Shown here piece by piece: positions 20,146 to 51,998 of a stretch of DNA of 64,000 nucleotides; the stretch's first letter is position 1, and each line of letters begins with the position of its first letter. The DNA is from Saururus chinensis (Eukaryota > Streptophyta > Magnoliopsida > Piperales > Saururaceae): the NCBI GenBank assembly GCA_035235625.1, contig CP141141.1, positions 8,112,968 to 8,176,967 of the forward strand, given 5' to 3'. A model generated the notes under the pieces. That model saw only the letters and a program-made list of their open reading frames with translations. It was not told the DNA's origin and searched no databases. Made by a program: the position numbers and the translations under genes.

Positions 20146-20154
20146 TTAAAAAAA
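20146..20154. repeat. MULE target duplication, left (TTAAAAAAA)
   Basis: The nine bases TTAAAAAAA at 20146-20154 are identical to those at 27070-27078. Nine bases is the standard Mutator-superfamily duplication. The site falls in the terminal bases of G1. It is low in complexity, but it abuts two inverted ends that match, which makes chance unlikely. Confidence 0.85.
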
Positions 20155-20560
20155 GGGAAAATTATATAAATAATAATAATAAAATATTTACCAAAATAAA
20201 CCACTTTGGGAAATATTTCCCAAAGTGGTATTCCTTTTTGCCACGCAGGCGCCAACCAAGCAGCTGGCGCCTGCGTGGCTTTTTTTTTAATTTTAAAGTT
20301 GATTTCGTTGTTTAGAATGACGAAATTGGTTTTAAGTCAATTTCGTCGTTCTAAACGACGAAACCGTTTATAAGTTGACCCGGTTTCATCGTTCTGAACT
20401 ACAAAATCAACTTAAGTTGATTTCGTAGTTCTGAATGACGAAACTGCCACACTTATCCCATTTCGACCTTTGGTCTCGGCAACAATACTGATTTCATCGT
20501 TCTAAACGACAAAATCAGCTTAAGTTGATTTTGTCGTTTAGAACGACAAAATCATCTTCG
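20155..20560. repeat. MULE left terminal inverted repeat with subterminal palindromes
   Basis: Contains a perfect 30-bp palindrome at 20200-20229, a 40-bp hairpin at 20240-20279 with 14-bp arms, then an array of short palindromes built on TTTCGTCGTT-(n)-AACGACGAAA at about 20305, 20340, 20390, 20425, 20490 and 20530. The mirror-image array occupies 26700-26940. Repeated subterminal motifs in MULE ends are known as likely transposase binding sites; that role is inferred here. Confidence 0.8.
20240..20279. repeat. 14-bp-arm hairpin of the MULE end
   Basis: Arms GCCACGCAGGCGCC (20240-20253) and GGCGCCTGCGTGGC (20266-20279) are perfect complements around the 12-base loop AACCAAGCAGCT. Diverged copies occur at about 26968, 42090, 42705, 42880, 45640 and 46505. 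Confidence 0.9.
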
Positions 20561-20992
20561 TTATCCACTCAAACCCGCTCCGCCTCTAGTCGTGTTTCCA
20601 GTCGTCCAATCGTTTCTTCCTGCGATCCAGCGTTCCGCTCTGTTGCCTCTATCGACGTTTGGCCCGCCACCTCTGCCGACGTCCGGCCCGCTGCCAATCC
20701 CACCACTGATCCTGCCTCCTCCTCCCCATAGCATTTTTCGTCTGCCGCCATTTTAATTGTGCCCATTTCGCACTCAATCCATGGTACCCTAATTCTTCAT
20801 TTTGTTAAATAGTTAGTTTAAAAATGTGTTGATCTAAAGTCTATGGTTAAATTAAATATTTGCTGCGTGTCTAGGTTTTGCATTTTGCCTCTTACGAAAG
20901 TGTGTTTTGCCTCTTGCGAAAGTACTACTCTAGGTTGTTTCGGTGTTGGTAAGTAGCTTATGAACTCTCTATTAATTCAGTATTTTGGTGTA

Positions 20993-21793
20993 ATGTGCGA
21001 TTTGGATGATTTAGTTAAAAAGTTTGATGCTAAAATGGACTTGATTGGTCAAGAGAGTCCTAGGGCAAAACATCTCCTCTTAGGAGGAGAATTGCATCTT
21101 GCATAGTGGTCCCTTGCTCACAGTGGTTTTATGACATTTGGCATGACGACTACAAATATGGCTGAAAGTTTAAATAGTGTCTTGAAGGGGGTACGAGGTT
21201 TACCCATGCAGGCTTTAGTGTCAGCTATCTTTTATCGGCTCATAAATTTTTTTGTTAAATGATCTTCTGCCGCCTCTGCCATGGCCACCCCGTATACTCC
21301 CAAAGTGGAAGCTATATTGAGAGAGCAAACAAGAAAAATTAGGGAGTATATAGTTAATAGGATCAACAGGAGTCAGTACAAAGTGACATCAATTCGTGCC
21401 CGAAAGGTTATGGTAAATGCTGCGATGCATACTTGTACATGCTACATCCCTCAGGTTTATGGTTATCCTTGCTCGCACCTTATCGCCGTGTGGGCAAAGC
21501 GGCGGGAGCCAATCCATGCATCACTATTTTACACATCTTCTACTTATAAAAATGTGTACTCCACAAAATTTTATTCTCCTCGTGGTCGAGAGTATTGGGA
21601 GAGGGATATACCTTTTGTGTTATACCTTCCGATAGCAACAAGGCAACCCGGTCGCTCACGGTCTGTTCGCATTAGGAATACAATGGACCGTAGAACAATG
21701 GAGAGAGATGGTAGAGGAGGATATAAATGCGGGAGGTGTAAACAAAGTGGGCATAATAGTAAATCATGTAGAAACCCTCCTGTTGATTGGTAA
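20993..21793 (+). pseudogene. MuDR-type transposase, C-terminal part, broken
   Basis: One frame from 20993 to the stop at 21793 with two nonsense codons (TAG at 21104, TGA at 21260). The segment WSLAH...TTNMAESLNSVLKGVRGLP is the conserved end of the MULE transposase catalytic region. Beyond it lies a SWIM zinc finger (CTC, eight residues, then CSH) and near the C-terminus a zinc knuckle CGRCKQSGHNSKSC (Cx2Cx4Hx4C). Full-length MULE transposases are usually 600-900 residues; only about 265 codons remain, so most of the DDE domain is missing. The longest open piece is 21281-21793 (170 codons). It lies inside the terminal inverted repeats of the MULE, on the same strand as the PMD gene. Confidence 0.9.
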
Positions 21794-21807
21794 ACATATA
21801 ATCAACC

Positions 21808-24565
21808 TATAATATCCTGAATTTTCCTAACTTTTGAAAATTTAATACGTGGAAAATAAGGTGTTTAACCCTTTGAACTTCTTAGGAGAATAGCCTCCTT
21901 TATAGATAGAATTTGTGGCTAATTCTATTAGAAAGTAGACAGATAGAGCTTCGAAACGCCACCAAGAACGTACAAATCAGGTTCGGATGAAGGAGATACG
22001 ACTGTTCAAAGTTGAACATATCGTATAGGGCCCATTTACCCGATTTAGATGTGTATTTGGCCCTTTTAAGTCATCTTGTGGGCCCGGTTAATTAGAGTTC
22101 CGAAATTAGTTTTTGGAGGCCTAATTAGGGTATCTAAGTGAGAAGAATTGACCAATTCTAGGGGGATTAGGAACCCTAGTCCCCATGTTTATAAAAGGCA
22201 TTCTTAGGGCACAATTTGGGGGGTCTTTTTGGCCCGATAGGAGGAAAGGGCTGTGAAGGAGGCTTTGGCAATTAAGGTTAGATTGTTTTTGAATCGAGAT
22301 TAATAAAAGTTTCGTTAAATAAATATGAATGATTGTTACATTAATTCTGTAGTTTACTATTTATTTTATAATTTATACGAGTTGCTGTCACTGTTCCCAT
22401 AATTAGGGAACAGTGAATTCTAATTTCAGCCATTGAGTAAATTTACCGGCCACCGGTCGGCCAGCCGCCCAATCGTCGGCCGGAACTATGGCAATGGAGG
22501 GGCCGCCCTGGTCTTTGCCCTGGTCACTAGCTTAAAGACTAGAAAAAAATTCGTAAAAATTACAAAGTATCCATAGAAGTATTTCAAGGGTCCTGACTAA
22601 GTTTCAAACTGGGGAAAAATCTAAATTTTTTTGAAATGACCAATTTACCCTTGTGAGTTGACGCATAGCATAATGTTTAATAATCAGAATTCGGGGCTCC
22701 GGTTCAAGGGTCTAAGAGTGGATTTAAAAATTGAGAAAAATCTCAAGGAGATTCCAGTAAGTATCCTAAATTTGGACCAAGGCATAAGCTAGGTAAAAAT
22801 CCCAGTAAGTAGATATTTAACTATTTTACCCCTAGGGTTAAGGTAAGACAATTAATTGAACCGGAGTCGGTTCAAGGGGTTTACGACCCCGTTAAATGGA
22901 AAGAAAATTACCTTAGGTTCACAATGTCAAGGTGTACCCCTGGGATTAGTTTTGAACCTGTCAAGGTTCAGGGAAGCCCTGAACAAAAGACAAAAATACC
23001 CTTGTGCAGATTGGTCGTATTTGTGTGGATGGAATTAATGGGCCAATGTGATACTGAAACCTTTTGAGAGGTTAAAGACTTACCTGAGAGCAGAGAGGAC
23101 CGTATCCAATATTGGGATAATTACTTTAATGCTCTTAGATGCACTACAACCAGTTTTCATAAAGATTTATTAAGATAACCCAAGGAGGGTTAGGGCATGA
23201 TAGCTCGAATAATTCTTATATCATTAATGAATTTTATTATTGATATTATGATTTGCCTGGACCTGTGTGGTTCTGATTGTTTATGTTGTTCATTGTTTCT
23301 ATATTTGATATTGATGTTGTGATAAAAATTTATCATCTGCTTAAGATTATTGAAAGATAAATCAATGAGGCTTAATAGCTTTGGATTGGGCGAGAACACC
23401 TAATCAAGATAAAGACTAATATACCTCTGAGGGGTCTGGGACTAGTTCATAGAGTGAACAAAGCCACCTGACGATTTGCCTTGGTTAATGAACCAATGGC
23501 AGTCTCGAGTTTTAAACCCTAGTCTAGAAGGGACTAATAGGGTTTGGGATAGTCATTCGAAAATCCTGGCTTATAGATGAGCAAGATAGGGTTCAAAATG
23601 GTTTCCTAAGTTTTTAGCTCTTTTGAGGAGCCGCTGATTTGACTGTGTAGTTGCACTTCCCCATTGGAGGGAGCTGTGTGTGAGCCGGGCTCACTTTCGA
23701 TCTATTGAGGATCTTTTAGTGTACACGCATTTGGATTAGCTGACATTCCTGCTTGGTTGGCTTTTCCCGCCACTTCTGTTCAGGTGCAGTTATGGGTCAT
23801 GCCCTTCCACTCCGATCAGGTCCTTCATGGGCTAGGAGGGGTGACAGTACTTCCTGGTGGATTCTAGGGTATTTCGTTATCATTTGTCACTAAGGTTGAC
23901 ATTTGATGAGTCTGTCTATCTTTGGGATTAGACTGGGATATTAATTATCAAACAATGGTTCGATAAATAATTAATAACATTGATTGATATTGCTTGTTTA
24001 ATTAGAACAAGTGGAACGATTAAAGGACTTACATAAAATGTAGGTTGCTTTAAAATACTTAAGCATTGCATGTGTGTTGTTGTGCTTCTTAGTATAGTGT
24101 AGTATTAGGCAGAACTACGTCTAGATCTGATCTTGTTGGAAACATTGGAGATGTTGTCTGATGAGTACGTAGGCAACTAACATCAGGTGATGTTGGCCCG
24201 ATCCGAAAAATATTAATAAAACCTTTTGTCCTTTGGAAGCTCTTCTCCTGAAGGCGGAGATGCTCTATTATGGTTGTGGTTATTGTTTGGTTTGCTTTGT
24301 TGCAAGTTTTTTAGGCGACAACGAGTGAGACCAAGATTGACGCTTATAAGATGAAGTTTCTTCGTGTTTGCAACTCTGGTATGTAAGTGTACCTTTAGTG
24401 TGAGAGTCAACTTGTTATTTATTTTCTAACGGATGACAGACTTGTACTTAAATGGATGAGCTATTCTTTATGAATTTTCAGACGTTAAATAATATCATAT
24501 GATTTGATATCCGTACTTGTGAACCCCAGTTATCATGACCTAGATATTTAATCGAATGGTTAGCC
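21808..24565 (-). mobile_element. Nested LTR fragment in the MULE, minus orientation
   Basis: Matches the long LTR family in reverse: 21808-22450 corresponds to 59810-60447, and 24100-24560 corresponds to 56940-57400. The shared 'aacgttgaacatatcgtatagggcc'-type segment and 'tggaaacattggagatgttgtctgatgagtacg' region are clear landmarks, as is the 'gtcatgacc' start region near 24535. About 110 bases of the LTR start are missing at the right junction. Confidence 0.75.
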
Positions 24566-25198
24566 AGTAAATACTTGAAAATTTTACAAAAACTGAAATT
24601 ACAGAATAGTTCAAATAAATTACAAATTACAGAAATTTGAATTTATTTAATAAACTTCAATTAATCTTCACTCGAGTACTAAGGCAACAATCCTACCTTA
24701 ATCGCTGATTTGTTGTCGATCCACCACCGCCAAAGCTTCGCCGGAGATTCGCCGGAAAAATCCAATGCCGCTCGTTCTCCTTCGCTCCAAAAATCCCCAT
24801 TTTCCCCTTTTTTTAAGAGCCCTAATTAATTCTTTTTATAGGTATGGGATTAGGGCTCCTAATCCCAAGAGAAATTGAGCCCCAAAAACCCAATTTTGGA
24901 ATGCCAAATAATTGAGCCCGCAAAATGACTTAAACGACCCAGTTGCATTTTTTATTCGGGTAAACGGGCCCTATACGATATGTTCAACTTCGAATGATCG
25001 TATCTCACTCATCTGAACTCCGTTTCACACATTCTTGGTGGTGTTTCGAAGCTCTTTCCGTCTATTTTCCATCTATATATGATTCAGCCACCACTTCTTA
25101 CTGATGACCAAGTTATTCTCATAGGAAGGTTAAGGGGTCCTACACCCTAATTTCCCCGTGTACGACTTTAGGAATGTAGAAAATTCCCGGACGTTACA
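24566..25198 (+). mobile_element. Nested LTR terminal fragment in the MULE, plus orientation
   Basis: About 630 bases ending GACGTTACA correspond to 59800-60447 in direct orientation. With the piece at 21808-22450 it makes an inverted pair about 630 bp long separated by 2.1 kb. The junction with the previous fragment falls in 'aatggttagccagtaaatac'. Confidence 0.7.
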
Positions 25199-26448
25199 TA
25201 CACATCGGCCGACCAAGTGCTGAGATGGGTCGCTTGGTCGAGGGTGCTCCATTAGGGGCGAGGTAGGTTGTATTTATGTTTACCATGTTACTTTTTTAGC
25301 AATGTTTTATATACATATGTTGAACTTATTTTTTTAATTTAACTCCTTAAGGTGGAATGTTTGGAAAAAAAGAACCGAAAATCCACAAGAAGTACTCCGG
25401 CTATACAGAGGGGAGTTAGACCAGCAGCGGCCATACCAGGTAATTTTATTACCGTGTTGAACTTTTTTATGTAATGATTTTAAAAAAAATTGTCGTTATT
25501 TAAACTAAATTATCTTTATATATTGTATAGATTATTTGGTAGCCGTACTCAGAGGACGTGTTGGCTGTGTTACCTCCCCTATGCACGGACGGTCAGGAGG
25601 TGTGGCTATCTCAAACTCCGTTAATATGTTACCAGATTATCGAGATGTATGTGCCGGATCGTGTAATGCTCCAGTTTAACATGGAGCAAGGGGTCCCACC
25701 TTATATCGTCGAGTTTGTCCACCGTATCACTTGACAGGGCCGCCATATTACCGATTGGGCTATACATCATGCGTTGTATATTGCTCGATGGGAGGATAGG
25801 AGAGCCATTGTTATTAGAGGGGAGATGACTACGACATTGCGAGATGTTCGTAGTACTTATATGCAATGGTATTTACCGATTACACGACGATATATTTTAC
25901 CGCATGATGATGTAGAGGAGATGACATATCAGCCTAGGGGAGCGTCTGAGGCAGCTCTAGTAAGTACAACTTTGTTAATTAAGGCATATATTATTTTCTT
26001 ATTTCATTTTAATTATTTATCTAATATTTAATTTATTTTTTTATAGTTTCGTCTAGTTCGAAGTACGCATGTGCATTTGAGTGATGCACTTATCACCTAT
26101 ACTTCGCGCGAGGACTTATCAGCAGTATGTCAGTCGGTGATTAGAGAGTCTAATGATGTCCTTCGTAGCTTGCCACTATTTCATTCGGTGATCACAGATG
26201 TTCATCGAGATTATCCTGTCGACGAGGCTGCTCAGACGCAGCCAATGCACTCTTCATGCCCTGATATTCCATCATCATCAGCAGAGTATAGCTCTCCTCC
26301 AGGTTCATCATTTCTGAACACTGCACATATAGCTCAGCCAGATCCGATTTTATATTATAGACGATATCGGCCACCTCATGTTGTACCATCTATTACTTAT
26401 GCTGAGCCCGAGCCCAAGCCCGAGCCACAGCCACAGCTAGAGCTATAG
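25199..26448 (+). pseudogene. PMD (plant mobile domain) gene, C-terminal half, broken
   Basis: Four exons with GT/AG borders: 25199-25262, 25352-25439, 25531-25959, 26047-26448. They join in frame to give HIGRPS, PLGARWNVWKKR, QIIW-PYSEDVLAVLPPLC, PLICYQIIEMYVPDRVMLQF, HITDWAIHHALYIARWEDR and MQWYLPITRRYI-P, the C-terminal half of the PMD domain, followed by a Ser/Pro/Glu-rich tail. Two nonsense codons break it: TAG at 25540 and TGA at 25732. The N-terminal half is absent; the gene starts abruptly at the edge of the nested LTR fragment. PMD genes are known from plant transposons and from the domesticated MAIN/MAIL1 genes. Here it sits inside the inverted ends of a MULE with the transposase. 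Confidence 0.85.
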
Positions 26449-26699
26449 GCAGATCATGAGGAGCTCGTACACCACCGTCGAGGACGTAGGAGATTATGAC
26501 ATTACTTTTTTTATATGTTTATTTTAAACTAAACATTATTTCGACTTGTGATGTAATATATTTAATACTTGTCTATGATGTACTTTAATGTTATATTTGT
26601 TATAGGTGGGATGAATAAATTCGTGTATGTATTGTGTATGTTTTGAATGAATGAACAGGGACAGGTGATAAAATTAGTTTCAAATAGTATTTTAAAAAA

Positions 26700-27069
26700 A
26701 ATTAATTTAATTTCGTCGTTTAGAATGACGAAATTAGTATTGTTGCCGAGACCGAAGGTCAAAATGGGATAAGTGTGGCAGTTTTATCGTTCAGAACGAC
26801 GAAATCAGCTTAAGTTGATTTTGTTGTTCAGAACGACAAAACTGAGTCAACTTATAAACGGTTTCATTGTTTAGAACGACGAAATTAACTTAAAATCAAT
26901 TTTGTCGTTCTAAACGACGAAATCAACTTAAAAAATAAAAAAAAAATCACGTAGGTGTTAGCTGCTTAGCTGGCGCCTATGTAGTAAAAATAAATACCAC
27001 TTTAAAAAATATTTTCCAAAATAATTTATTTTAATAAATATTTTTTATTATTATTTATATAATTTTTTC
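26700..27069. repeat. MULE right terminal inverted repeat
   Basis: Reverse complement of the left end, with the array of TCGTCGTT/AACGACGA palindromes (26710-26930) and a decayed copy of the terminal hairpin (26968-27000). The inner 'ccgagaccgaaggtcaaaatgg' segment matches the left end in reverse at about 20458-20485. Confidence 0.85.
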
Positions 27070-27078
27070 TTAAAAAAA
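27070..27078. repeat. MULE target duplication, right (TTAAAAAAA)
   Basis: Identical to 20146-20154. Confidence 0.85.
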
Positions 27079-27337: not shown

Positions 27338-30300
27338 ATGGCGTCCCCCATCGCAACCCGCCAGCTTTTCATCGACGGAGAATGGAGGGAGCCTGCCATG
27401 AAGAAGCGCATCCCCATCATCAACCCCGCCACCGAGCAGATCATCGGTTCTCTCCCCATTTCTCGCCATTGGTGGGCAGTTTCCTTGCATCCTTGTTCTC
27501 TCAACCCTCAAATAATAAATGGTGGTTTTTTCGTTTCTTAATGCTTTTCTACCAGGGGATATCCCGGCCGCGACCGCCGAAGACGTCGACCTGGCGGTGG
27601 CTGCGGCTCGCCGGGCGTTTGTTAGGAACGAAGGCAAAGACTGGTCTCGCGCTTCTGGGGCTCACCGGGCCATGTTTCTGCGTGCTATCGCTTCAAAGGT
27701 CTTTGTACTCAACTTTTGTTGTGATAGATCATGGTTCCTTGTCTTATGGCTTAAACGGGATTGTGATTACGAGGGTGTTTGTATTTGTTCTTTTGTCTAT
27801 CTCGACAAATCCTTTTCCTCTTAGGGTCCTTACATCGTTTTAATAGCCATGATCCTTAACATTTACACTCTAGGACCGGTTGTTAACTTGTTTTTTCCTC
27901 TGTATAAGAGAATAGCATTCTATGTTTGGAAATTTGGAAAGAGTGCAATAAATTCAGTTCAGTTATTGGCAGAATGCCAGCTTTCCATGCTTTAATTGGT
28001 TTCTCACTTTGTGATATGTTCTTCGTAAAGCACAAAGTACCAACCCTTGTCCGTCTCTTTGATTTCAGTAAAGTTGATGCATGATAGGATGACTTACCAC
28101 CGCATTAAAAAAAAACATTTGTCTGCTTGCAACACTCATTACAGTGGTTACAACTTGGTTGACCTACATTTGAAATAACAAAGATAGCTTTTCTGGACAT
28201 ATTTGTATCATAATTTCCATCTTAGAAACTGAAACGAGCTTCTTTTACTAAGAAAACTGTACAAATGATCTCTCAACTGTGATCTATTTATGCCATTCTT
28301 TTATTTCATGATATCAACTGTAAACTCGTTATATTGTCTAGTTGTCTTGATATGTCTACCGAATGGATAAAAAATTATAAATATTAATTTAATTATGCAA
28401 GTGGCAGTAATTGAATTTGTTCTTTCTTGTCTATTCATCACTATTTTGTATTATTTATTTGATAAATCTAGCATCAGTCATGATAATAAGGGGCTGTTTG
28501 GGTGTGGAATTATTTCAAATGGAATTAAATTTTTTTGGAATTAATTCAATCAATTCAGCATAGAATCAAAATTAAGGTTGGTAATGGAATATTTTTGAAT
28601 AAATTCGGATGGAACTTCCAACCCATTTCTAAAACTTTTAATGACCGTAACTTTCTCTCTCGAAATCTGATATGTACGTTCTTGATACTGTTGTGCTTGT
28701 ACTGATAAGCCCTATTAAATAAGAACCCACATGGGTAAGTTATTTTGAACTTTTCAAATGGGGCCACTCATATGACACTATTCTCGAGGCTCAGATCGAT
28801 ATGAAGGGTGATAGTTAGAAAATGGAGGAATCCAAAATTCTGAAATGGGAGGCTGGGAACCGGAATTGGTGGAATGATGTAGGAGGGTTTCCTCCTCTTC
28901 TTTTGGGAGTCCCTCTCAGGCCATGCCACATGTATGCCCACCTGTCCAAAGGCTGACAGGGTAAACCTGTCCAGCTTCTAGAAGCTGTCTCTAGGCAAAG
29001 GGGAAAAGGGAGGGGCAGACTGGTCAAATTCACAGTTTGTTAACAAACTGTCAGAAGTTCGTTGGGGATGAAACGAGGGAATAAGAGGGAAAGAAAGGCA
29101 GATTGGAAGGGATGATTCGAATTGGCAAAGATTATGTTCTAGAATTTTATTTCTTTCTCTGTAATGCTCATGGATTTGAGCTTAGTTGTGCTGTAGATTC
29201 AGCCTCTGTAGTTTCAATTTTCTTCTGAAGTGAACAGCTTGTGGATTCAAGCTTCCTATTACTGTAATTCCGGGAAACTGAATAGAAATACTCCAGGCTT
29301 TCTTCCATTGCCCTGAGTTTAGTGTTTGGCTTTGTATGTTCTGTTTGGGTCGACTATGTACTTGCTGTTTCTGAAATTGAACTGCATCATGGAATCACTT
29401 CGCGAGGTTATTTGGTGATGAATTTTAATTTCTGCACTATTTCAATTCCGTACCCAAATAGTCCCTAATTCAGTTTAATATTATAATTCCTTCTTCTAAG
29501 TTCCACTTAGTTGCATGTCTCTGATTTCTGCACTATTTCTATATCCAACCACAATTCCAGTGAATTGGGATGGAATTGTGGTGGAATCCTTGGAATCTTA
29601 GAGGAATTCGGTACCCAAATAGTCCCTAATTCAGTTTAATATTATATTTCCTTCTTCTAAGTTCCACTTAGTTGCATGTCTTTGACTTCATTTGTACCCT
29701 GATAGATGCATAGTTATACTGAAAATATTTCATTGGTACCATGTTAAGCACTTAGTCGGATATGGATGAATAAGTTGGATGATATTGGTTTTCTATCATA
29801 CATATTTCCTTACTTTTTCTGAAGATTCATGGTTTTGGCATATCACCTGGTTTTCCTTCTGTTTGTCCTTAAAATTTTTGGTTATATTATCTACATGAAG
29901 ATAATGGAGAAGAAAACTGATCTTGCCCGATTGGAAGCAGTTGATTGTGGGAAACCATTAGATGAAGCGGCATGGGATATGGTATGTAGATAATTATTTT
30001 TAACATTTTTTTAATTTTCTTTAGCCTACTTGGGTCCCATATGTTTTCAGTTTTTGGATTGGTTGTTTTACCTCAAGTGGCCAACAAATTTAACTAAAAA
30101 TGATCTGGCACTTTTGATATTATTCTTATCCTTATTCTTATCTTGCTATTTCACTATGCAGGATGATGTTGCTGGCTGTTTCGAGTACTATGCTGATCTT
30201 GCAGAAGCTTTGGATCAGAAGCAAAAGGCTCCTGTGGCTCTTCCATTGGAAACATTTAAATCTTATGTTCTCAAAGAGCCATTAGGAGTAGTTGGTTTGA

Positions 30301-33300
30301 TTACTCCTTGGTATGTGCTAATTATTTTTCCTAATTCTGTACTTTGTCCAAATTTTCTTTTTATGATACTAATATAACTAGATAACTTCCGGATTTTACA
30401 AGACACATTCAATTTTCATCAGTGCTTCTTTATGTTGATATAAGGTGGCGGTTTATGGTTAAAAATTCCCAGCAGTATTTTCAACAGCTGTAATAGCAAC
30501 TGTAGCATAGACCAAAATTCTGGCACTGATGATAGCTTGAGTAAATGAAATGATGAAATAAAAAACCAAATATCATTTGTTTTCGTTTGGACTGGTGAAA
30601 ATTTTCATGTAATGAACAATATGTTTACTTCCTGGTTTGCAAGCATGGGTTAGGGGCTATTGAGGAAATGGAAACATGTCACAGCGGCGCTATTAACCGG
30701 TAGTGCAAAGCATCCAACTTGCCACAAGAGATCCATCTACACAGGAGAAATTTTTTCTTCTCTGAATGTTTGTTGGAGCATTTGAATTTATCTTTTACAT
30801 AATTTCTACAATTTAAAAATCCTTGTGTCCACGTATGTTTTGGCCAATTGTGAAATTAATTATAATCACACCATTTTGGAATGATGTTATTTGTTCAATT
30901 CATTGTTTTCATTTGTTAAGAATTTATTCGGCTTATGGTTTGGTTGTTAGAGCCTTGCGGCATACATGCTATATTAAGCCAAAAATGCTACTGTACTTCA
31001 ATTGAACAATTGCTTCATTATTTTGGTGCTATGTGCTAGTAATATTATAGATTATTTCTATTCATATGCATTTGCATTTTCTTCTATAGAAAAATTGTAT
31101 AATAAGAGTGTGAAAATGACTTTTTGTCTGCTCCCTTTTTTGAGCTCTTATAACAAAAGACCACGGGAATTGATAAAGGCTTATTACAGTGGTGACATAG
31201 AAATTTTATGTCCCTGTATGGCTCTTTGGCATCTCTCTCTCTCACTCACTCACACACACATGCGCGCACGCGCGCGCATGCACACACACACATCTTTCCT
31301 CTTTCGCCATTATTGTATTCATGACAATAAGGCCCCGCTCTTCAGAGTAGGGCCTAATTTTCTGCCCCTTATCATGGTGGTCCTTTATGATTCTATCACT
31401 CCTACAATGTTGGATCTTTGATTGGCCCATATGTAAGATAAGATTCGTGAGGTGCTCCTTGCAGAAAATTTTTCTGGCCTTTTGTGTTTCATTTTAGATT
31501 TATGAGGTGATCCTGGTACAACTCAATGCATGTGCATTTTGAAAGTTCACACTATCTGTTTTTATGTTTAATTTAAATATTTTTGTTGAAAAAAAGTAGT
31601 TAATATTTCATATTGGAAGTGTATTGGAATAACGAGATGTTTTTTGAAATTTTTTTTCCAGGAACTATCCTCTATTATTGGCAACGTGGAAGGTCGCTCC
31701 AGCCTTGGCTGCTGGATGTACAGCTATACTAAAGCCTTCTGAGCTGGCATCTGTGTATGGTTTAATTTGATTCATGCATTTTGCTTGTACTTTAATTTTC
31801 CATATACCCGTTAGCTCCCAGTAATTCTGTGTGAAACTTCAATATACAGTACTTGTTTGGAGTTAGCTGAAATATGTAGGGAAATTGGTCTCCCGCCTGG
31901 TGTCTTGAACATTGTGACTGGTTTAGGTCCAGAGGCTGGGGCTCCTTTGGCATCTCATCCTCACGTTGACAAGGTATGTTATCTGGTAATATCTTCATAC
32001 ATACACGTAAACAAACATATGTTGTGTGTATACATATAAACATAGAGACACATATTTGGTGCATATTTAGTTATTTTCTTCGCACATACATGTAAACAAA
32101 CATATGTACATGTGTATGTACATATAACATAGAGACACATATTTTGTGTATATATGAATGACTAATGTGTTTTTAGGTCGCATTTACTGGAAGCTCTGCA
32201 ACTGGTAGCACAATCATGACAAATGCAGCTCGAATTGTTAAGGTAATTTAAGCAATTATAATAAAATATCACAATAACTTTGCACTGTTCTGTAATACTT
32301 AATGTTGCTTATCTGAATGACAGCCTGTATCATTGGAGCTTGGTGGAAAGAGTCCAATTATTATTTTTGATGATGTTGATCTTGATACAGGTGATATAAT
32401 CAAACTTGACAATGTAATTAGCATTTTTTACTTATGTCTTAGTAAGTTAGAAAATGTACTACTTCAATCTGACCATCTGAGTTATCAAATGTGCAATGTG
32501 ATTGTGAGCCTTGCTTATTTACTTAGAACTTTTCCAACAGCTGCTGAGTGGACTCTGTTTGGGTGCTTCTGGACAAATGGTCAAATTTGCAGTGCAACAT
32601 CTCGTCTCCTTCTCCATGTAAGTGGCACTGTGATAGCTCTCATAAGTGACATATTAAATAAAATAGTTAAAATTGAATTCGCGAAATTGTAAACATGCAC
32701 CTTTAGTGCGTTGAAATGTTAATGCTACTACATATTTTGCATTGTCTAATGGGAGGTATAGGATAATGTTATAGCCCAATGACTTATAGTTATGACCTGA
32801 TCTGCGGAATCATAATTGCACATGGAACACTCACTGACACTGTTCAATGGCTATAAGTTGGTCCTAGAGTTGCACCCTGTTGTCAGTTTGTTTTCTTATA
32901 TTCTACTTCATCAAAACTTATTAGCTTGCTCACATATTTCATGCCATTTCATTTGTATTAGTTAATTTTTTTAGTATATCATATCTTTTTATACTTGGAA
33001 GCAATTAATTTTAGTTATTAAGTTCTGAAAAGCATAAAAATGTTTTGAGCTATTTTAATATATTTGAATTTGGGTTGATTAGTATATCTGATCAGATGTG
33101 AATGTCAGGTTTGATAGTTATCGCACTTTAAGCAGTGACCTGGTGTGAGATATCTAATTCTTTGTCCTTTAAACCCATTGCCAAGCTTAGGAACAATTAA
33201 ATATTAATATCGTAAGATTGATAACAACATCAGCAACATCATCGCCATCATCGTCATTATCATCATTATCGGTAATAATAATAATCCTTATGTGATGGAG

Positions 33301-44342: not shown

Positions 44343-45137
44343 GGGTTTTTTTGAATTGGTGGAAACCGGGAGAAAGGGAAAGAGAAAGTGAATCAAGGTG
44401 AAATAGAAACTAGAAGATTCTTAAAAAAATTTCACTATTTGGTTGCACAAATGATGTTAGAGAAAATTGACGGTAACGGTGGTGGTAGTGGTGACAGTGG
44501 TGCTAGTGATGGCAACGGTGGTAGTAGCAGCGATGATGGTGGCGATGGCAGTGGCAGCAGTAGTATTGGTGGCAGTGGCAGTGGTAGCGGCAATGGTGGT
44601 GCCGACGATGGTGGTAACGGCAGTGGCGGTGGCAGTAGTGGTGGCAGTGGGGATAGTGACAGTGGTGGCAGTGGCAATGAGGGTAGTGACAACAATGGTA
44701 GCTGTGGCGGCAGTGGTAGTAGCGATAGTGATGGTGGCGGAAGTGGTGGGTGGGGTGGCAGTGGTGAAGGTGTTGGTGGTGGCGGTGATGGTAGCAATGG
44801 TGGCTGTGGTGGTGGTAGTAGCAGTGGTGGTGATGGCAGCGGTGACAGTGACAACAATGGTGGTGGTGGCAGCAGTATCGGTGGTGACAGCGACGGTGGT
44901 GAAGGAGGTGACAATGAAGGTAGTGTAGTAGCAGTAATACATAAGTCTTTAGTATAATAATTTTCTCCCAAAAATCCATGGGTTGATGGGTGGAAAGTTT
45001 TTGGGCCAAATTTTCACCCATTTTCTCTCACTTTTCACTCTAGTTTCTCTTTCCCCGTTGCACCAAACAGTGGAAACAAGGGGATTTTAAGAAGATTCAC
45101 TTCCTTTCCCCCTCTTTCCACCAATCCAAACAGACCC
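44343..45137. mobile_element. Tourist-like MITE carrying a GGT/GGC repeat, 795 bp
   Basis: Left end GGGTTTTTTTGAATTGGTGG pairs with the right end reading GGGTCTGTTTGGATTGGTGG on the minus strand. TAA flanks both sides (44340-44342 and 45138-45140). The ends resemble those of the 976-bp element in ALDH10 intron 2. The centre is a trinucleotide-phased repeat listed separately. Confidence 0.8.
44468..44930. repeat. Trinucleotide-phased GGT/AGT/GGC/GAT repeat, 460 bp
   Basis: Irregular array of NGN-type triplets (ggt, agt, ggc, gat, agc). It has almost no stop codons in any frame, so long ORFs appear on both strands: Gly/Ser-rich, Val/Ala-rich, Pro/Leu-rich, Thr/Ala-rich and His-rich. None has a normal protein composition. 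I treat it as a microsatellite-derived array inside the MITE. Confidence 0.8.
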
Positions 45138-49402: not shown

Positions 49403-49824
49403 CTAGAGTGGGAAATATGGAGTAGGAGGCGCTGGTGGAGGTGCTAGAGTGGGAAATCTGGAGATGGAGGCACTAGTAGCGGTGCAAAAAAAAAAAAAGG
49501 TTATGGTGGAGGCAAAATAGGGAAAGCTTGAGATGGAAGCGCTGATGGAGCAATTTGGTTCCGGTGGAGACAAAGATGGATCTGGTAGAGCTGCTGGCCA
49601 GTGACACCGAGGGAGACCGGAGTTGAAGCCAAAGGACTTTTTGAGATGGGTGAAGCCCGGAGGGAGGGAGGAAGGGCGGTGAAAATTTTCAAACAATGCC
49701 ATTTGGTATATTTCGTTACATTAAGGTTTAAGTGAGAAATTTTACGTTTTAAAATGGGGTGTATAAGTAACGGGGGATACAGGGATAAAACAAAAGTTTA
49801 AATAGCAACGTTCTAAATATAAAT

Positions 49825-49857
49825 ATGGCCATTTCGGCTGCGACCTCGGTAGAATGA
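49825..49857 (+). promoter_or_regulatory. Upstream ORF overlapping the PPR start codon
   Basis: An ATG at 49825 opens a 10-codon frame (MAISAATSVE) whose TGA overlaps the PPR ATG in the sequence ATGA at 49854-49857. Such an overlap could permit termination-reinitiation. Alternatively it is the remnant of an original, longer N-terminus now out of frame by one base. Confidence 0.5.
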
Positions 49858-51998
49858 AAAACAGATGCCTAATCTCTGTGCTGGAATCATGCACTACATT
49901 GAAACAAAGCTTGCAGGTTCACGCGCAGTTCATTCTCAGTGGCCTCCGCCGTCAGACCTTCCCACAGAGTCGACTCATCTTCTTCTTTGCCCTCTCAGAC
50001 TTCGGTTCACTGCACCATTCCCGCCAAATCTTCTCCCAGGTTGACGACCCAAATCTCTTCATGTACAACACCATGATCAGGGGCTACTCCCGTAGTGGCT
50101 CCCCCGAGGAATCTCTGGTCTTGTATAAATTGATGAATGGCCGGGCATTGTTCTATCCCAATCATTACACGTTCCCGTTTCTTGTCAATGCTTGCGCTAA
50201 GATGTCGACTGCGGATTTGGGGCTGCAAGTTCATGGCCATGTCGTCAAATTTGCTGTATCTTCTGATGTTTTCATTGTCAATTCTCTCATCCACTTTTAT
50301 CTTAGTTTTGGGGACGTGGGTCTTGCCCGCCGGCTGTTTGATCGTATGTGTGAGCGTGATGTGGTTTCGTTTAATGCAATGATGGGCGGATTGGCGCGTC
50401 AAGGCCACCCCGGCGAGGCACTCCATCTCTTCCGAGACATGCTGGCTTTGGGCCTGAATCCTGATGAAATCACTATTGTCTCTCTATTGTCTGCTTGTTC
50501 TGTACTCAAAGACCCTAGCACCGGGAAGCTGATTCATCTCCTGATCTACAGAAGTCTAAACGTGGGAGATGTGAACGTTATGGTGAAAAATGCTCTTCTA
50601 GACATGTATGCCAAGTGCGGGATGATGAGAGCAGCTGATTGCGTTTTCCGTGAGTTGCAGGCCGACAGAAGTTGTGTTGCATGGAGTTCAATGATCATGG
50701 GTCATGCTAGATGTGGAGAAATAGGGAGAGCTCGTGATCTTTTCAATGATATGCCTGATAAAGATGTGATTTCATGGACGACCATGATAAGCATTTATAC
50801 TCAAACAGGGCAATACATAGAAGCATTGGAGCTGTACAAAGTAATGGAGACAAAGGGGTTGGAGCCAGATGAAATGACCATGACTGCCATCCTGTCGGCA
50901 GCTGCACAATTGGGTGCTTTCGATTTTGGAAAGAAACTTCATAAGGATATCAAAAGGAGGTCGTTTGGCCATAATCCCGTCCTGTACACAGCTATAGTGC
51001 ATATGTATGCAAAGTGTGGGAGTATAGATGATGCACTTCATGTTTTCAATGGGGTTCCTGTAAAATCAAAAAGTGTTCCGCTCCTCAACTCCATAATTTC
51101 AGGGCTTGCTCAGCATGGGCTTGGCAAGAAAGCATTGGAAGTTTTTGGTGAAATGAGATCTCTTGATTTGAGACCTGACAAGATTACATTCGTGGCTCTT
51201 CTCTGTGCTTGTAGTCATGGAAGCCTTGTAGCACAAGGCAAGAAAATATTCACATGCATGCAAGAGGAATTTGGGATTGAGCCAGAGATTGAACATTATG
51301 GTTGCATGGTTGATCTTCTTGGACGATGTGGACTTTTGAAAGAAGCTTATGATTTTATTGAGAAAATGCCATTCAAAGCAAACTCTGTAATGTGGGGAGC
51401 TCTATTAAGTGCTTGTAGAATCCATGACGATGTTAAGATGGGTTTGGTTGTAGGCCAAAGAATCTTTGAAGTTGAACCTGAGCATGGAGGTCCCTATGTT
51501 CTATTGTCAAACATGTATGCCAAGGCAAGGCAATGGGAAGATGCACAAGCACTAAGGAAACAAATGGATGCCATTGGCATCCAGAAGCCTGCTGGATGGA
51601 GCTCTATAGAGCTGAATGGATCCCTGCATCAGTTCTTGGCAGGTGATGTGTCGAGCTCTGATGCGAAAGGCATTGATCTGGTGCTTGCAGAGATTTCAAG
51701 AAGATTGAAATCTGTTGGTTATATTCCTGATACGAGTCAGGTTTCATTTGACATTGATGACGAGGAGAAGAAAACTGTTGTTTCTAGGCATAGTGAGAAA
51801 TTGGCCTTTGCTTATGGATTGCTTAACCTTCCAAATAACGAAACAATTAGGATTATGAAAAATCTCCGTATTTGCCGAGATTGTCACTCATCGTTTAAGT
51901 TCTTCTCTAAAAGTTTTCAGAGGGAAATAGTGGTGCGGGACAGAATTAGATTTCACCACTTTAGGGATGGATTCTGTTCTTGTGGAGATTACTGGTGA
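49854..51998 (+). CDS. PLS-class pentatricopeptide repeat protein with E and DYW domains
   Basis: Intronless 714-residue ORF. DYW-type PPR proteins bind organelle transcripts and carry out C-to-U RNA editing in plastids or mitochondria. Repeats fill residues about 1-560, with typical pieces such as NALLDMYAKCG, ISWTTMISIYTQTGQYIEALELY and MVDLLGRCG. The E region has YVLLSNMYAKARQWEDA and a PG box KPAGWSSIE. The C-terminal deaminase-like DYW domain is complete: HSE at 646-648 (active-site HxE), CRDC with Cys674 and Cys677 (zinc), FHHF near 701, and a CSCGDYW terminus. No stop or frameshift is seen. The N-terminus starts directly at NRCLISVLESC, where the repeats begin, so no organelle transit peptide is evident; G2 and an overlapping upstream ORF lie just before it. 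The editing target cannot be read from the sequence. Confidence 0.95.
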   Translation: MKNRCLISVLESCTTLKQSLQVHAQFILSGLRRQTFPQSRLIFFFALSDFGSLHHSRQIFSQVDDPNLFMYNTMIRGYSRSGSPEESLVLYKLMNGRALFYPNHYTFPFLVNACAKMSTADLGLQVHGHVVKFAVSSDVFIVNSLIHFYLSFGDVGLARRLFDRMCERDVVSFNAMMGGLARQGHPGEALHLFRDMLALGLNPDEITIVSLLSACSVLKDPSTGKLIHLLIYRSLNVGDVNVMVKNALLDMYAKCGMMRAADCVFRELQADRSCVAWSSMIMGHARCGEIGRARDLFNDMPDKDVISWTTMISIYTQTGQYIEALELYKVMETKGLEPDEMTMTAILSAAAQLGAFDFGKKLHKDIKRRSFGHNPVLYTAIVHMYAKCGSIDDALHVFNGVPVKSKSVPLLNSIISGLAQHGLGKKALEVFGEMRSLDLRPDKITFVALLCACSHGSLVAQGKKIFTCMQEEFGIEPEIEHYGCMVDLLGRCGLLKEAYDFIEKMPFKANSVMWGALLSACRIHDDVKMGLVVGQRIFEVEPEHGGPYVLLSNMYAKARQWEDAQALRKQMDAIGIQKPAGWSSIELNGSLHQFLAGDVSSSDAKGIDLVLAEISRRLKSVGYIPDTSQVSFDIDDEEKKTVVSRHSEKLAFAYGLLNLPNNETIRIMKNLRICRDCHSSFKFFSKSFQREIVVRDRIRFHHFRDGFCSCGDYW

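Follow-up and report, generated by a model that had tools for sequence, protein, structure and literature searches.

Plant mobile domain genes in MULEs and in their hosts

The presence of plant mobile domain (PMD) genes in Mutator-like elements (MULEs) of plants has already been published, and the idea of a MULE that carries such a gene is not new. The first description of the PMD came with a rice MULE, and PMD-C was reported as fused to MULE transposases in grasses and Amborella (Ikeda 2017, PMC5418596). Table 1 of Dupeyron 2019 (PMC6446971) places PMD in seven groups of plant MULEs (42 and 45-50), frequently in antisense orientation. The subject here is a PMD-bearing MULE at positions 20155-27069 of a 64,000-nucleotide stretch of Saururus chinensis DNA (hereafter the window; C2:8112968-8176967 within a plant genome whose 11 contigs total 516 Mb). 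In all likelihood, this element is a decayed member of an abundant two-gene MULE family whose PMD gene was maintained by selection and probably aids the spread of the element. New in this work are the linkage of the two genes at the level of individual copies, a test of selection, a PMD reading frame with its own ATG near a splice acceptor, and terminal inverted repeats (TIRs) that are rich in palindromes.

A host function of PMD proteins has been described in Nicolau 2020 (PMC7156037) and in a paper of 2023 in Life Sci Alliance (PMC9899485); it is also treated in a 2021 Cells review (PMC8616336), and PMC11152179 mentions PMD proteins in passing. Arabidopsis MAIN and MAIL1, which have the PMD domain in common with the element protein described below, belong to the host and not to transposons, and they work together with PP7L in silencing. 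PMD proteins of the MAIN/MAIL1 type silence Arabidopsis transposons, yet transposons carry PMD genes. Anti-silencing by transposon PMD was put forward as speculation by Ikeda 2017 (PMC5418596), and the counter-silencing idea is repeated in the Cells review (PMC8616336). Maize MuDR and the Arabidopsis VANDAL/Hiun elements resemble the present family in combining a transposase with an accessory gene (mudrB, vanB, vanC), with VANC counteracting silencing (Dupeyron 2019, PMC6446971); here, in contrast, the accessory gene is PMD, for which such a role would be the most likely. A literature search, judged by title and abstract opening and mostly outside subscription journals, found no published selection test on a MULE-encoded PMD.

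Of the described elements, the PMD-bearing groups 42 and 45-50 of Dupeyron 2019 share with the Saururus family a 9-bp target site duplication (TSD), SWIM and/or CCHC motifs, and PMD as an extra open reading frame. Group 47 has TIRs of 14-421 bp, a range into which the TIRs of about 400 bp seen here fit. In several of these groups PMD is often antisense, whereas it lies in the sense orientation in the loci examined here. The PMD-C of grass and Amborella MULEs likewise sits beside a MULE transposase, but as part of a fusion protein (Ikeda 2017), whereas the present gene is provided with a start codon of its own, and no fusion results from the evident splice sites.

A delimited element and its siblings

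The window element spans 6,915 bp with edges fixed to the base. Its inverted arms (20158-20526 and 26699-27066) are 85.6% identical across 369 bp, or 85% identical across 351 nt when gapless arms are taken, and they belong to a 5′ TIR at 20155..20560 (forward strand) and a 3′ TIR at 26660..27069 (reverse strand). Comparison of the flanks revealed a 9-bp TSD, TTAAAAAAA, with copies at 20146..20154 and 27070..27078 that agree at 9 of 9 positions. An A/T-rich duplication of this kind is weak evidence by itself, but it gains weight because its place agrees with the ends predicted by sibling elements. A first-pass annotation, made from the letters of the window, had claimed matching inverted ends of about 400 bp, a perfect 9-bp duplication, and two same-strand genes in between, all of which were borne out, the genes by Pfam matches to SWIM and PMD. 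Its span of 20146..27078 has the ends right to the base; as it takes in both TSDs, the element proper is the shorter interval given above.

Four siblings taken whole (L047-L050) measure 6,802-7,147 bp between their ends, and all four have the order TIR, transposase, PMD, TIR. Perfect TSDs of their own flank L047 and L048; L049 has a match only at a 1-nt offset, and L050 has none. The main transposase frame of L048, 712 codons long, matches DBD_Tnp_Mut (3.5e-11), MULE (PF10551, 6.2e-19), and Transposase_mut, together with a sub-threshold zinc knuckle. Across 51 copies, the catalytic D, D, and E, at what we take to be the motif positions, are retained in 47, 45, and 44, and the SWIM and knuckle residues each in 47-51. 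The PMD profile matches exon 1 of L049 at 5.6e-46 (157.8 bits, positions 1-181 of 347) and exon 3 of L048 at 1.1e-20 (74.6 bits, positions 239-346 of 347). With a 9-bp TSD, long TIRs, a MULE domain with DDE in a sibling, and a C-terminal SWIM motif, the element is a MULE, and its second gene belongs to PF10536, scoring above the curated cut-off in the window (in part) and in siblings. Searches against solved structures recovered no relative at E 0.01 for the L048 transposase frame and none for PMD exon 1, whose three matches stood at E 0.53-0.6.

The family is abundant. First-look searches of the genome returned 3,412 candidates with a TIR query (best 40 scored), 2,211 with the transposase end, 2,146 with PMD exon 1, and 1,490 with part of PMD exon 3 (best 150 scored for each of the three), all of these being loose counts. 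Because one element should hold two TIRs, the candidate counts suggest that many family members carry coding sequence. Separately, the full PMD profile was found within about 1.3 kb at each of C8:4261839, C9:12289679, and C1:36967275, with scores above those of this MULE family; these loci could be host PMD genes or belong to another element family.

Linkage and shared history of the two genes

The association of PMD with the transposase is a property of the copies at large. Thirty transposase loci were fetched, one of which was the window itself, and PMD lies downstream on the same strand in all 29 others. PMD exon 1 falls inside the 1.5-kb downstream flank in 27 of the 29, and in 26 of these it begins about 0.28 kb past the transposase, the spacing in L022 having been shortened by an internal deletion; in L030 and L038, exon 1 lies approximately 3.7 and 3.5 kb downstream, respectively. 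Taken from the other side, the upstream flank of PMD-exon-1 loci holds the transposase in 28 of 30, and of the remainder L067 and L038 are one copy. Loci fetched through their TIRs carried transposase and/or PMD pieces in 8 of 8 cases (the window among them). A transposase or PMD match from the top-150 lists lies within 9 kb of 22 of the 40 scored TIR matches; of the other 18, four (L002, L004, L006, L007) are among the fetched loci and do carry such pieces. Finally, among the best-150 lists, at least 58 of 150 transposase matches pair with a same-strand PMD exon-3 match within 10 kb, a lower bound because just the best 150 per list were scored; 53 of these pairs are spaced by 2.0-2.1 kb, and opposite-strand pairs number zero. 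The first-pass annotation had held that its view would fall if copies with these ends never carried PMD, and the counts from the ends and from the transposase speak to the contrary.

That annotation had also proposed comparing the trees of the two genes, and within the family these agree without strong conflict. In 49 two-gene copies, pairwise distances of transposase and PMD correlate with a Mantel r of 0.76, or 0.77 with copy-specific age removed, and 0 of 2,000 permutations reached either value; median divergences are similar, at 3.8% and 4.3%. Resolution is low, with 8 of 46 splits common at any support. The strongly supported ones, 5 in one tree and 7 in the other, have 3 in common and 0 strong conflicts, set against a mean of 16 conflicts and a minimum of 4 in 500 label shuffles. 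The two genes have thus travelled together inside this family, a statement without bearing on deeper time.

A PMD gene with its own start codon

The PMD gene of the family comprises six exons (0, 1, 1b, 2, 3, and 4), with borders inferred from reading frame and GT/AG. These borders are retained in nearly all copies, as exemplified by the donors of exon 1 (61 of 61) and exon 0 (54 of 57). Of 58 copies, 56 have the PMD ATG, which follows a CAG acceptor (47 of 58) at a distance of five bases. The transposase stop codon shares bases with a GT donor, reading GGTAAA in 55 of 58 copies. Since only about 0.1 kb separates the two frames, it is attractive to suppose that both belong to one transcription unit.

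It is quite unlikely that the PMD is translated fused to the transposase, as in the grass and Amborella MULEs, for which fusion proteins were described (Ikeda 2017, PMC5418596). A donor on the transposase stop and an acceptor just ahead of the PMD start are what such an arrangement would call for. Joining them removes approximately 0.1 kb and makes a stop at the junction, and the PMD ATG follows four bases beyond, in another frame. These two sites therefore give no fusion protein, and the nearly universal ATG also speaks for separate translation; this route to a fusion is ruled out by reading frame, not by RNA. A family of two separately started proteins remains the reading preferred here.

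Selection on the transposase and the PMD

The 70 sibling loci merge into 62 copies, and the tree used to measure selection (n = 62) comprises the window and 61 of these, L046 having been dropped as it fell below the length threshold. Changes were placed by parsimony with CpG transitions excluded and a fixed transition weight, without a full codon model. For the transposase, internal branches carry 83 nonsynonymous and 61 synonymous changes (omega 0.51), and terminal branches 411 and 147 (1.05; p=3.1e-4). PMD exons 0-3 yield almost the same picture, with 108 and 89 changes on internal branches (omega 0.48) and 431 and 193 on terminal branches (0.89; p=3.0e-4), and all six PMD exons together give 0.58 and 0.94 (p=0.0018). 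By exon, the signal resides in PMD2 (p=0.0029) and PMD1 (p=0.022). A contrast of singleton with shared variants is also significant for all PMD exons (p=1.3e-5). As the loci were picked by protein similarity, nonsynonymous counts in the query exons are possibly depressed. Both proteins were under purifying selection on the internal branches, with omega near 0.5, and appear nearly neutral on the terminal ones. In our reading, the PMD was kept functional during the spread of the family under a constraint close to that on the transposase, with neutral decay of the copies once inserted. Selection on the PMD that resembles selection on the transposase furnishes quantitative support that a transposon PMD serves the transposon.

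It is very unlikely that the PMD is instead a passenger, a host gene captured in the manner of Pack-MULEs and without function for the element. Capture of host genes by MULEs is on record (Ikeda 2017, PMC5418596; Dupeyron 2019, PMC6446971), the C-terminal tail of the PMD is neutral, the gene is broken in 29 of 30 tested copies, and several subset tests of selection are not significant. A passenger would nevertheless have to account for a six-exon gene at constant spacing in 26 of 29 loci, for splice sites and a start codon that are largely retained, and for an internal-branch omega in exons 0-3 like that of the transposase. Most likely the PMD is a part that the element has maintained, and the earlier claim of an accessory protein, not a passenger, is supported by the sibling linkage and by selection on internal branches.

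Several observations weigh against this conclusion. PMD0, PMD1b, and PMD3 are individually not significant, though each points in the same direction, and the PMD4 tail is neutral on internal (omega 1.10) and terminal (1.15) branches alike. Non-CpG changes that create stops fall on internal branches, 3 in the transposase and 9 in all PMD exons, and the internal branches are consequently not a purely active lineage but take in some decay or misplacement, an admixture that would weaken the signal of selection. In the singleton-versus-shared contrast the transposase falls short of significance (p=0.18), and the smaller subsets selected otherwise than by the tested exon give p=0.053 for PMD exons 0-2, 0.36 for the transposase, 0.67 for PMD exons 2-4, and 1.0 each for PMD3 and PMD4 alone. 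Two loci keep the PMD beside a TIR without a transposase: L078, in which a TIR lies about 0.2 kb upstream of PMD exon 1 and the transposase is missing, and L007, in which PMD exon 1 (699-1376) follows a TIR with no transposase within the flank. Both are apparently deletion derivatives. Each of the whole elements L047-L050 has at least one damaged PMD exon. The first-pass annotation had called for copies with both genes open; among the 30 copies chosen by PMD exon 1, to which this count is confined since the flanks of transposase-chosen loci stop short of PMD3 and PMD4, the last 405 transposase codons are open in 10 and all six PMD exons in 1, and the fully open pair occurs in 0. Lastly, the Arabidopsis ‘DOWN’ motif CATGCAGTTT, tied to host PMD function (PMC9899485), is without an exact match in five elements. 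As a cis target the motif was discarded, its sole one-mismatch match sitting in flanking DNA ahead of the L049 element.

A proposed role for the two proteins

An intact member of the family would have palindrome-rich TIRs of about 400 bp and, between them, two genes in the same orientation: first a transposase that combines an N-terminal DNA-binding part with DDE, SWIM, and CCHC parts, then a six-exon PMD gene with its own start codon. The transposase would bind the ends, move the element, and leave 9-bp duplications, the anatomy being as observed in the copies and the mechanism that of the superfamily. Maintained by selection with much the same strictness as the transposase while the family multiplied, the PMD probably contributes to the element’s own spread. 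Its most likely role would be to counter or divert transcriptional silencing by the host, through mimicry of or competition with proteins of the MAIN/MAIL1 type. A defined gene pair with defined ends in many related copies provides material for testing anti-silencing.

The TIRs themselves offer candidate sites of action. When folded as single-stranded DNA, the window 5′ TIR forms a string of hairpins (z -16.8, with 0 of 100 shuffles as stable), and its palindromes include dyads of the type TTCGTCGTT..AACGACGAA. Each of the 17 TIRs analysed contains TTCGTCGTTCTAAACGACGAA 3-6 times when up to 4 mismatches are allowed. Palindromes cover 0.35-0.68 of TIR length, as compared with shuffle means of 0.08-0.22 (20 plain shuffles each), and this cover exceeds the shuffled maximum in 16 of 17 TIRs; the window 3′ TIR is not above it, at 0.35 versus 0.50. 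Across the family, one AT-richer hairpin and one GC-rich one lie near the tip, followed by several 21-bp dyads. Such an arrangement suggests putative dimeric binding sites for the transposase or the PMD. It is enticing, if unlikely, that the element PMD is an anti-silencing or transcription factor directed by sequence, one that reads the dyads (3-6 per end) as a dimer and keeps the TIRs active, a cis-specific counter-silencing analogous to that of VANC by an unrelated protein.

The window copy

The copy in the window has both genes broken, as the first-pass annotation had stated. Its transposase is reduced to a 3′ remnant of approximately the last 258 codons (21018..21793, forward strand; open from 21263, stop at 21791-21793), and in the 1,215-base segment taken for comparison, similarity to L048 starts only with base 443. 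Both catalytic D residues are deleted, and the catalytic E and the SWIM and zinc-knuckle residues are retained. Pfam matches on the frame 21263-21790 are to a SWIM zinc finger (PF04434, 8.2e-6; 21407..21490, forward strand, residues 49-76) and, under the curated cut-off, to a CCHC zinc knuckle (zf-CCHC_2; 21719..21772, forward strand, residues 153-170). The PMD gene, also on the forward strand, begins inside exon 1b, of which a remnant lies at 25196..25260, and continues with exon 2 (25353..25439), exon 3 (25531..25959), which bears in-frame stops at 25540-25542 and 25732-25734, and exon 4 (26048..26448), the C-terminal tail that is neutral across the family. Within exon 3, the frame 25543-25731 matches PF10536 at 6.9e-12 (45.6 bits versus a cut-off of 34.9), a partial match to profile positions 243-295 of 347.

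Between the two genes lies a nested high-copy repeat of 3.4 kb (21809..25195) with imperfect inverted ends (21847-22126 and 24873-25159, 73%). In L048 its place is taken by about 1.0 kb that includes PMD exons 0 and 1 and the first part of 1b. The repeat is dispersed in the genome (3,354 first-look candidates with an internal 1-kb query, best 40 scored) and looks non-coding. No matching target duplication was found at its borders, where about 1 kb of the host element is missing. Although this repeat does separate the two window genes, the chance that their pairing is accidental, with PMD exons brought in by another mobile element nested in the MULE, is close to nil and the idea is refuted, the PMD lying outside the repeat and following directly on the transposase in siblings. 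The siblings likewise rule out the PMD as a later insertion, an outcome that the first-pass annotation had named as able to overturn its view: their PMD continues from the transposase, and it is PMD sequence that the later insertion of the window replaces. As a member of the two-gene family, the window copy has lost the 5′ part of its transposase, has had its PMD start replaced by the second repeat, and has acquired stops in exon 3, with no order implied among these events.

Neighbouring sequences

An aldehyde dehydrogenase-like gene of the betaine/aminoaldehyde type starts approximately 270 bp downstream of the element, with an ATG at 27340 read by eye, and the MULE thus occupies its 5′ flank. 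For one of its exons (32321-32689), the matches are to aminoaldehyde and betaine aldehyde dehydrogenases of plants, with a best E of 2.1e-18. Further along the window, a long simple-sequence tract at 44355-44957 is rich in Gly/Ser codons in one frame, with several frames open, and a 730-codon frame at 49806-51998 resembles a pentatricopeptide repeat protein, as judged by eye.

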